A stretch of 64,000 nucleotides of DNA from Methanolacinia petrolearia DSM 11571 (GTDB taxonomy: Archaea; Halobacteriota; Methanomicrobia; Methanomicrobiales; Methanomicrobiaceae). Position numbers and translations under genes: made by a program. Positions 37,086 through 40,022 of the stretch are shown in pieces. The DNA lies in contig NC_014507.1 of assembly GCF_000147875.1 (NCBI RefSeq), forward strand, positions 1,054,001-1,118,000, in the 5' to 3' direction. The notes below the pieces were generated by a model. That model had not been told where the DNA came from, ran no database searches, and worked only from the letters and a program-made list of their open reading frames with translations. Numbering within the stretch: the stretch's first letter is position 1; the number at the start of each line of letters is the position of its first letter.

Positions 37086-38351
37086 TCACACCTCCCTCGG
37101 GTCGGTTATCACGCCTTTGATCGCACTTGCAGCCGCAGTCGCCGGGGAGCAGAGGTATACCTCGCCCTTCGTGCTGCCCTGCCTTCCGCGGAAGTTGCGG
37201 TTGGATGTCGAAAGCGAGACCTCCTCTACGCCAATCAGGCCGAAAGCGCCTCCCATACACGGTCCGCAGCACGGGGCCTCGAATAGTGCGCCGGCCTCGA
37301 CGAACTTCTCGATGATTCCTGCCCTGAGGCATTTCAGGTACTCCGTCCTCGAAGCCGGGATCGCGATCACCCTGACATCCGGCGAGAACTTCCTGGCACC
37401 CATGACCTCTGCGGCCTCGGCGAAGTCCTCGTATCTCCCGTTCGTGCAGGAGCCGATGAAGACCTGGTCAAGATGTGTTCCCTCGACCTCGTCTATGTCT
37501 ACGACGTTATCGACATTATGCGGAACCGCGACCTGCGGGACGAGATCACCGACATCGTACTCCACCTTTCCCGCATATGCAGCGCCCTCGTCGGCCTTCA
37601 GGTCGAAAGATCCGGCCTTTGCCGCATCGACATCGCCCCACTGCGAGAGCCACTTCCGGGTCTTCTCGTCAGGCGGGACGATCCCTGCCTTTCCGCCCAT
37701 CTCGATCGCCATATTGCAGCATGTCATCCTCCCGGGAATCTCCATCTCCTCGAATGCCTGCCCGGTGAACTCAGCCGCACGGTAGGTCGCACCGTCCGCA
37801 CCGATATCTCCTATGGTCTTCATGATGAGGTCTTTTGCTCCTACACGGGGTGCGAACTTCCCGTCGGCCTCGATGCGGACGCTCTCGGGAATCCTGAAAT
37901 ACAGGGCCCCGAAACGGAGGACGAATCCCATGTCAGTCGAGCCGATTCCGGTCGAAAACGCACCGACCGCACCATATGTACATGTGTGCGAATCGACGCC
38001 CACGACTATGTCCCCGGGCATGATCTTTCCCGTTTCGAGCGCGACCTGGTGGCAGATACCCTCCTTTACGTCATAATTATATATCCCCTGCTCCTTCGCG
38101 AACTCCCTCATCATGATGTGGTTCTCGGCGGCGGTAATCGAGTCGGCCGGGACCTGGTGGTCGAAGATCATGATAATCTTCTCCGGGTCGAAGACCTTTC
38201 CGCCCTTCATCCTGTGGAACATGTTGACGGCGAGCGGGCCGGTAATATCATGGACCATCGCCGCGTCAACGGGCACAACCCTCATTTCTCCAGCCGATAC
38301 GTCACACCCGCATTTACGGGAAAATATCTTTTCAGTTATCGTTTTTGTCAT
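37086..38351 (-). CDS. leuC: 3-isopropylmalate dehydratase large subunit
   Basis: 421-residue archaeal-type LeuC, an aconitase-family enzyme. The [4Fe-4S] ligands are visible in GSCTNGRYED and in EAPCCGPCMG (CxxC), with VDSHTCTYGAVGAFSTGIG upstream. It overlaps the end of leuA by 20 bases, so translation is coupled. With LeuD it converts 2- to 3-isopropylmalate. Confidence 0.95.
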   Translation of the reverse strand: MTKTITEKIFSRKCGCDVSAGEMRVVPVDAAMVHDITGPLAVNMFHRMKGGKVFDPEKIIMIFDHQVPADSITAAENHIMMREFAKEQGIYNYDVKEGICHQVALETGKIMPGDIVVGVDSHTCTYGAVGAFSTGIGSTDMGFVLRFGALYFRIPESVRIEADGKFAPRVGAKDLIMKTIGDIGADGATYRAAEFTGQAFEEMEIPGRMTCCNMAIEMGGKAGIVPPDEKTRKWLSQWGDVDAAKAGSFDLKADEGAAYAGKVEYDVGDLVPQVAVPHNVDNVVDIDEVEGTHLDQVFIGSCTNGRYEDFAEAAEVMGARKFSPDVRVIAIPASRTEYLKCLRAGIIEKFVEAGALFEAPCCGPCMGGAFGLIGVEEVSLSTSNRNFRGRQGSTKGEVYLCSPATAAASAIKGVITDPREV

Positions 38352-39867
38352 ATCTGTACACCAGATTCAGTGCGTTGACCATCGCCTCTACCGAAGCCAT
38401 CACAATATCGGAACTCGAAGCCCCGGCGTCGAACACCCGGCCGTTCTCGTCCTCGACCGCGATAGATACGTGGCCGATAGCATCGCTTCCGCCTGATATC
38501 GCGGCCACGTTGAAGTCCTTTAGGATGACCTCCTTAGGGACTACATTCAGCAGGGCCTTCATCGCGGCATCGACCGAACCGTTGCCGGTCATGCACGAGA
38601 CCTTCTCCTCGCCGTTGACGATCGCCTTGACCGTCGCGGACGGCAGGACATGGCTTCCAGTCATCACCGCGAAGCCGTCCAGGGTTATATCCTTCACCAC
38701 AACACCGGTTCCGCAGACGTTATCGGCGATCTCGTAGAGGTCGTTCTCCTCGATCTTCTTTCCGTGCGATGCGATCTCCTTGATCTTTGCGACGATTGCA
38801 TCCAGTTCGTCTTCCGAAGGATTCATCCCCACCTGGTCGAGCATCTGGCGGACGGCGTGCTTGCCGACGTGCTTGCCGAGCTTCAGCCTTCTCCTGTGGC
38901 CGACCATCTCGGGGGTCATGATTCCCGGCTCGAATGTGCTGGAGTTTGCAATAACGCCGTGAGAGTGGATTCCGCTCTCATGTGCAAAAGCATTGTCGCC
39001 GACGACGGGGTGGACTGGCAGAACAGAAATTCCCGAGTATCTCGAGACCATACGCGATACCTTCACCAGGTTCTCGGTCTTAACACCAGTATCAAATCCG
39101 AGGATCGATTCAAGTGCCATAACGGTCGAAGCGAAGTCCGCATTTCCGGCTCTCTCGCCTATTCCGTTGACCGTGACCTGCACCTGCGATGCCCCGGCCT
39201 CCACGGCGGATACCGAGTTCGCGACCGCCATCGAAAAATCGTTGTGGCAGTGAACGTCGATCGGGCATTTCACATCCTCGCGGATGGCAGATATCAGGGC
39301 GCTCATCGACGAAGGAGTCGCGACTCCCACGGTGTCGGGCACGTTTATCGTCGTCGCTCCCGCGTCGACCGCGGCCTTAAAGACCTCGCTCAGGTACGGA
39401 ACTTCGGTCCTCGTCGCATCCATCGCCGAGAAGAGAACCTTATCCACGTTCTCCCGTGCATACCCGACGATCCTCGATGTGATCTCAAGAACTTCTTCGC
39501 GGGTCTTTCGGATGGTATTCTCCCGCTGGACATCGGACGTGGGTATGAACACGTGCACCATATCGACATCACACTCGATGCACCTGTCGACATCGGATAC
39601 AACAGACCTTGCCAGACCGCAGATGTCCGCTTCCAGCCCGAGCGAGCTTATCATCTTCACGGTCTCGAACTCGGATTCCGAAGATGCCGGAAAACCTGCC
39701 TCAATTACGGATACGCCCATCCCGGATATCGCTCTAGCAATATCGAGCTTCTGGTCGAGAGTGAACGAGACGCCAGGCGTTTGTTCCCCGTCTCTTAAAG
39801 TCGTATCAAAAACAGAAATTTTCTTCGTAGAACTATTCTTATCGCCAAAGAAAGCGACCTGCCGCAT
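38332..39867 (-). CDS. leuA: 2-isopropylmalate synthase
   Basis: 511-residue LeuA: HMGL-like TIM barrel (DTTLRDGEQTPGVSF, metal motif HCHNDFSMAVANS) and a C-terminal LeuA allosteric domain from about residue 380. It condenses acetyl-CoA with 2-oxoisovalerate and is normally feedback-inhibited by leucine. It opens the leuACDB operon. AGGAG lies about 13 bases before the ATG, a rather long spacing; no other in-frame start is available. Citramalate or homocitrate synthase are alternatives for the family, but the leu operon argues for LeuA. Confidence 0.93.
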   Translation of the reverse strand: MRQVAFFGDKNSSTKKISVFDTTLRDGEQTPGVSFTLDQKLDIARAISGMGVSVIEAGFPASSESEFETVKMISSLGLEADICGLARSVVSDVDRCIECDVDMVHVFIPTSDVQRENTIRKTREEVLEITSRIVGYARENVDKVLFSAMDATRTEVPYLSEVFKAAVDAGATTINVPDTVGVATPSSMSALISAIREDVKCPIDVHCHNDFSMAVANSVSAVEAGASQVQVTVNGIGERAGNADFASTVMALESILGFDTGVKTENLVKVSRMVSRYSGISVLPVHPVVGDNAFAHESGIHSHGVIANSSTFEPGIMTPEMVGHRRRLKLGKHVGKHAVRQMLDQVGMNPSEDELDAIVAKIKEIASHGKKIEENDLYEIADNVCGTGVVVKDITLDGFAVMTGSHVLPSATVKAIVNGEEKVSCMTGNGSVDAAMKALLNVVPKEVILKDFNVAAISGGSDAIGHVSIAVEDENGRVFDAGASSSDIVMASVEAMVNALNLVYRYDKNDN

Positions 39868-39885
39868 CTGTTGCGACTACTCCTG

Positions 39886-40022
39886 CATCAAAACGTTTTG
39901 ATGACATGCAGATTACATTAGCTCCATATAATATTTAAGAGTGTTGCAATTCGCACCGAAAATAAAGAATGATACAGTTGGGGTGCACCAAAATATATGT
40001 ATTATAAATCCTGACTGCACCA
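39886..40022 (-). promoter_or_regulatory. leuA control region: three GGTGC boxes, TATA box, 18-bp palindrome
   Basis: On the minus strand (T/C)GGTGC occurs three times, its GGTGC core at 40021-40017, 39989-39985 and 39957-39953, exactly 32 bp apart (three helical turns). Downstream lies CTTAAATATTATATG (39939-39925), a good TATA box, and then the perfect palindrome CATCAAAACGTTTTGATG (39886-39903) near the expected transcript start. A second TATA-like GATTTATAAT lies between the first two boxes. The layout suggests a regulator binding one helix face upstream of the core promoter and possibly a second one at the palindrome. Confidence 0.6.

Follow-up and report, generated by a model that had tools for sequence, protein, structure and literature searches.

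How is leuA, the gene of 2-isopropylmalate synthase, controlled in Methanolacinia petrolearia, and at which codon do the ribosomes that translate it begin to read? The genome of this species is a single contig of 2.84 Mb, from which we analyzed a window of 64 kb (the whole stretch of DNA under study). Counted from its first in-frame ATG at 39867, leuA occupies positions 38332-39867; it is assigned to HMGL-like, LeuA_dimer and NF002085, and the frames downstream of it read as leuC, leuD and leuB. An in-frame TAG (39877-39879) closes the leuA frame upstream. Between leuA and a TATA-like sequence, TTAAATAT (39931-39938), we detected the start of a short ORF, MSSKRFDAGVVATDAAGRFLWR (39839-39907), which runs from an ATG at 39907-39905, 45 bp downstream of a set of GGTGC boxes discussed below, to a TAA at 39841-39839. 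This ORF is the proposed point of ribosome entry; if its frame is taken as frame 0, that of leuA is +1. Within the ORF, the codons TTT CTT (39848-39853) form the proposed +1 shift site, with a Phe codon in the P site and a Leu codon in the A site. All of these features are on the minus strand. The initial annotation of the region between the TATA box and leuA had overlooked both the short ORF and the shift site.

Every Methanomicrobiales leuA locus examined has such a short ORF, with its ATG about 30 nt past the TATA box and leuA in its +1 frame. The same layout has been found in Methanosarcina-like, Methanocella-like and haloarchaeal genomes (the group names are our own reading), and the 137 leuA loci that have it span 14 Halobacteriota families where typed. 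In all 137 a frame-0 start (ATG in 133, GTG in 4) is open to the shift site and a TATA box lies about 30 nt upstream, a distance measured from a start whose choice mildly favoured 30 nt; A+T content peaks at -30 to -26 before the leader start. A spacing of about 30 nt between TATA box and ATG is that expected for a leaderless mRNA, and transcription of these genes appears to be leaderless. The frame-0 peptide usually terminates within about ten codons. Its codon-position bias is weak (137/121/172), and the sequence of the leader peptide itself is under little selection.

The layout is shared by a second gene. A paralogue of LeuA is encoded at 422992 in the M. petrolearia genome, and it groups with haloarchaeal genes of the same type. 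The family HMMs fail to separate LeuA from CimA, and therefore we used a tree, in which the two form separate clades. We named the paralogue cimA because a transposon in Haloferax HVO_0644, taken as its orthologue, leads to isoleucine auxotrophy (PMC8305020). The gene is directly followed by ilvB, which encodes acetolactate synthase (G000:C1:422992-426145), and this suggests that cimA and ilvB constitute an operon.

Which codon, then, stands in the A site of the shift site in each gene? It is a Leu codon in 137/137 leuA loci with the layout and an Ile codon in 42 of the 43 cimA loci; on the tree, the split between the LeuA and CimA clades coincides with that between Leu and Ile sites. Counted by genera, leuA has Leu in 37 and Ile in none, and cimA has Ile in 27 and Leu in one (Fisher p ~2e-17). 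The only cimA with Leu at the site (TTT CTT; G003, locus L168) is divergent from leuA and shares its box array. Two further matches to the site, ATA in L208 and ATT in L235, were taken as chance, the genes concerned having an ordinary ATG.

The codon at the leuA site may be CTT, CTC, TTA or CTA, with F, S or Y as the main-frame residue there, and at the cimA site it is ATT or ATC. At a fixed place in frame 0, Methanomicrobiales leuA has YTT and then CTT or CTC. Methanosarcina-like leuA, whose frame opens right after a stop and has no ATG, GTG or TTG, has TTT TTA at the site, and haloarchaeal leuA has GTT CTT; the Leu codon thus changes from group to group while leucine stays. In the main frame the critical base falls in a wobble position. 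All 101 aligned leuA sequences have C there, giving TTC, although TTT would equally encode Phe; 39 of 40 cimA sequences have A, and the resulting TTA is a codon that makes up 3.4% of the Leu codons in Methanomicrobiales leuA. The wobble bases frozen in this way are those on which the identity of the frame-0 codon as Leu or Ile depends, and the tetranucleotide TTCT is invariant in 101/101 Methanomicrobiales leuA. A shift-prone sequence, xTT with a Leu or Ile codon after it, is conserved at a fixed place. The site codons of frame 0 are frequently rare: Methanosarcina-like leuA has no TTA in its body, and in haloarchaea 2% of Leu codons are CTT and 4.7% of Ile codons are ATT.

An alternative reading of such loci is that leuA and cimA start in their own frame, at an ATG or else at CTG or some other codon, and that the short ORF is incidental or merely lowers initiation. 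An in-frame ATG, GTG or TTG is indeed present in many loci (84/137 for leuA), the window with its ATG at 39867 among them; an NTG often lies 18-19 codons before the core, and CTG has been named as an option for haloarchaea (PMC8305020). However, the main frame lacks ATG, GTG and TTG altogether in at least 71 genes (53 leuA and 18 cimA loci), and 21 leuA and 17 cimA loci have no CTG either. In these last loci the sequence, so far as it goes, rules out both an ordinary start and one at CTG. Overlapping frames, the second of which has no start of its own, are thus found in both genes, though not in every species. Since leuA of the window does have an in-frame ATG, the claim of a frameshift for M. 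petrolearia itself rests on homology. Own-frame starts would also leave the Leu/Ile rule and the frozen wobble bases unexplained, and we consider them an unlikely general explanation. Ordinary starts occur in Archaeoglobus-like and some other genomes (leuA families f9 and f16, and more families for cimA). A third paralogue, AksA, which belongs to coenzyme B synthesis, begins at an ordinary ATG, eight codons ahead of the core, in 10/10 genomes examined.

Could the short ORF instead act as a classical leader peptide, stalling at which affects transcription or the re-initiation of leuA and involves no frameshift? Its one to three end-product codons (Leu in leuA, Ile in cimA) give it a resemblance to the leaders of bacterial leu and ilv operons. 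In those archaeal genes, however, many have no start at which re-initiation could take place. The short ORF overlaps the gene, so that there is no room for a terminator between them, and no conserved RNA structure was found downstream of the site (mean z about -0.2 and -0.3). Control of this type is accordingly improbable.

The region upstream of the TATA box raises a separate question, that of transcriptional control. The initial annotation had reported three GGTGC boxes here, proposing an array for a regulator that might bind cooperatively, and we found the boxes as described: the minus-strand cores are at 40021, 39989 and 39957, in steps of 32 and 32 bp, and TTAAATAT, at 39938-39931, agrees with the claimed 14 bp from the last box to the TATA box. 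Box 1 (TGGTGC, 40017-40022) is farthest from the promoter and is kept in the two nearest genomes, G001 and G002. Box 2 (TGGTGC, 39985-39990) lies within the palindrome GGTGCACC, at -179 from the FDTT core of leuA, and box 3 (CGGTGC, 39953-39958) is at -147 from the core; both keep their places in relatives. All three are on the minus strand.

Would such a triple be expected by chance in promoter DNA? GGTGC is frequent in the coding DNA of this genome, and YGGTGC matches the 64-kb window 74 times against 39 expected, so that a single box carries no meaning. The exact 32/32 triple, on the other hand, appeared in 0/200,000 first-order Markov versions of the leuA intergenic region. Pairs of GGTGC at 30-33 bp number 23 in the whole genome; outside long open frames there are just two pairs at leuA and one at cimA, upstream of the paralogue at 422992, and all remaining pairs are within long open frames. 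The array is therefore common to two functionally linked genes. Its positions are also kept over several genera despite diverged spacers, and a chance origin is very improbable.

The comparison of leuA upstream regions covered Methanomicrobiales, within which the closest relatives of the window genome are Methanomicrobiaceae. The steps between boxes are 31/32 in G001 and 32/32 in G002; the spacers there are just 28-52% identical, and the 7-bp boxes match at 6/7 to 7/7 positions. Upstream of cimA, the same three species have a box pair exactly 32 bp apart. Four genomes of sister genera (G007, G012, G014, G019) have the 5-mers at -147, -179 and -211 from the FDTT core of leuA (+/-1 bp), G009 has boxes at two of these places, and in G003 two boxes 32 bp apart lie at -184/-216. 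The box of these genomes is reversed and reads GCACC on the leuA strand. As leuA and cimA are divergent in several of them, the array is placed there between both genes. Methanospirillum has another geometry, with steps of 21/41/24 and one box inverted. Methanoregula-like genomes have a lone GGTGCAG immediately before the leuA TATA box (L054, L077, L084, L087, L100, L108, L157), and in one of them GGTGC adjoins the cimA TATA box too (L176). The array is absent from Methanoculleus and from most other families compared.

The footprint across leuA promoters, in which loss of the boxes or of their spacing would have spoken against a regulator, thus revealed both position and spacing kept over several genera, with the sites at leuA and cimA conserved against diverged flanks. 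This conservation, together with the presence of the array at the paralogue cimA, supports the regulator array well, and the boxes are very likely the binding array of a putative regulator. The proposal stands as regards spacing, position and the sharing by cimA; it needs amending in that the orientation is not constant, the geometry differs in Methanospirillum and most families are without the array. We found no candidate for the box-binding protein; the genes upstream of leuA encode a DUF6141 protein and TBP. In archaeal repressor arrays at amino-acid genes, such as those of TrpY, several phased sites likewise lie near the TATA box. TrpY arrays use TGTACA boxes, whereas the leuA box differs in sequence, is mostly non-palindromic and forms direct repeats at 32 bp. 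A perfect 18-bp palindrome, CATCAAAACGTTTTGATG (39886-39903, minus), is situated just within the short ORF; it is kept in G001 and G002 and absent from other genera, and may serve as an operator or form a hairpin in the mRNA.

How may these two parts of the locus work together? Our preferred reading, to which we assign a probability of roughly 0.7 from sequence comparison, is that leuA and cimA are under two layers of control, a box-binding regulator at the promoter and a programmed +1 frameshift at a hungry codon. A putative DNA-binding protein would occupy the (T/C)GGTGC boxes of both genes, which lie about three helical turns apart (31-32 bp) and at a fixed distance from the TATA box. The 5' end of the mRNA would be at or next to the ATG of the short frame-0 ORF. 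When leucine is plentiful, the ribosome would decode the Leu codon of the site and soon stop, releasing a short peptide. When charged tRNA-Leu is scarce, the A site would remain empty and the ribosome would stall on this codon; the tRNA in the P site, in most cases on TTT or CTT, could then slip by +1, still pairing with TTC or TTT, and the ribosome would enter the leuA frame. In cimA the same slip would be triggered by the Ile codon. The missing downstream structure fits a shift driven by stalling. At the haloarchaeal leuA site, re-pairing from GTT to TTC would be poor, and most haloarchaeal cimA deviate from the xTT rule. Slippage of RNA polymerase on a T run, shifting the frame in the mRNA itself, can be suggested by the 5-6 T at the site of Methanosarcina-like leuA but is scarcely credible, as most sites (GTCTTCTTCACC, GAGTTCTTCCAG) contain no homopolymer longer than 2-3.

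The proposed translational frameshift has several known counterparts. The gene prfB, encoding bacterial release factor 2, is autoregulated by a programmed +1 frameshift at CUU UGA. It resembles the proposed mechanism in being an autoregulatory +1 shift at a CUU-type codon with a slow A site. In the leuA loci L160-L163 a G-rich AGGGGGTATC, nearly identical to the bacterial prfB stimulator, lies 5' of the shift site and may be a candidate for a comparable element. In place of the stop codon of prfB, leuA and cimA would use a hungry sense codon of the end product, and their upstream spacing is longer (5-6 nt). The +1 frameshift of antizyme, which is eukaryotic, senses polyamines and takes place at a stop codon. 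There, too, one frameshift serves a metabolic feedback loop both as its sensor and as its effector, but leuA and cimA would sense aminoacyl-tRNA at a sense codon, and in archaea (compare PMC8211752). Frameshifting at "hungry" codons under starvation, described by Gallant and others and a subject of research for decades, likewise has an empty A site and a slip of the P-site tRNA; it is known as an error process, in contrast to the use proposed here. According to a 2016 review of frameshifting, no case was known in which a trans-frame product specific to starvation is functional (PMC5009743). A review from 2021 on recoding in archaea includes one archaeal -1 case, leucine genes being absent from it (PMC8211752).

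The closest precedent concerns the same gene and the same puzzle of a missing start. For haloarchaeal leuA2 (HVO_1510), Pfeiffer and Dyall-Smith noted in 2021 that a start is missing, gave an out-of-frame ATG with ribosomal slippage as one of two options, speculated that leuA2 is translated only without leucine, and reported N-terminal peptides of Haloferax LeuA upstream of Met-93 (PMC8305020). Their case comprised a single set of haloarchaeal orthologues, and no shift site or codon was proposed. In the main text of that paper we found neither a Leu codon at a fixed site nor its Ile twin in cimA, and neither AksA as a control nor the methanogens. The rule for the codon, the twin in cimA, the comparison with AksA and the phylum-wide spread were likewise not found in the papers searched, which took in few subscription journals. 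We lean towards the view that, throughout the archaeal phylum of the window, methanogens and haloarchaea make the enzymes that open leucine and isoleucine synthesis only via a programmed +1 frameshift, in which a single hungry Leu or Ile codon signals that the enzyme's own amino acid is scarce; such a general end-product control by frameshifting has not been demonstrated before.

If this is true, the reading frame that encodes the enzyme relieving the shortage has a natural sensor of aminoacyl-tRNA built into it, and the start sites of leuA and cimA are misannotated in many genomes. The matched Leu/Ile pair would provide an internal control, and the GGTGC array would offer a second, transcriptional handle on both genes.

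Other amino-acid genes of M. petrolearia were considered as further cases of frameshifting. ilvB and trpE have ordinary in-frame starts, and at the hisG locus the longest frame is that of the neighbouring gene. Before trpE (L282, near C1:934700) there are TGTACA-like repeats, which resemble the TrpY TRP boxes of other methanogens.
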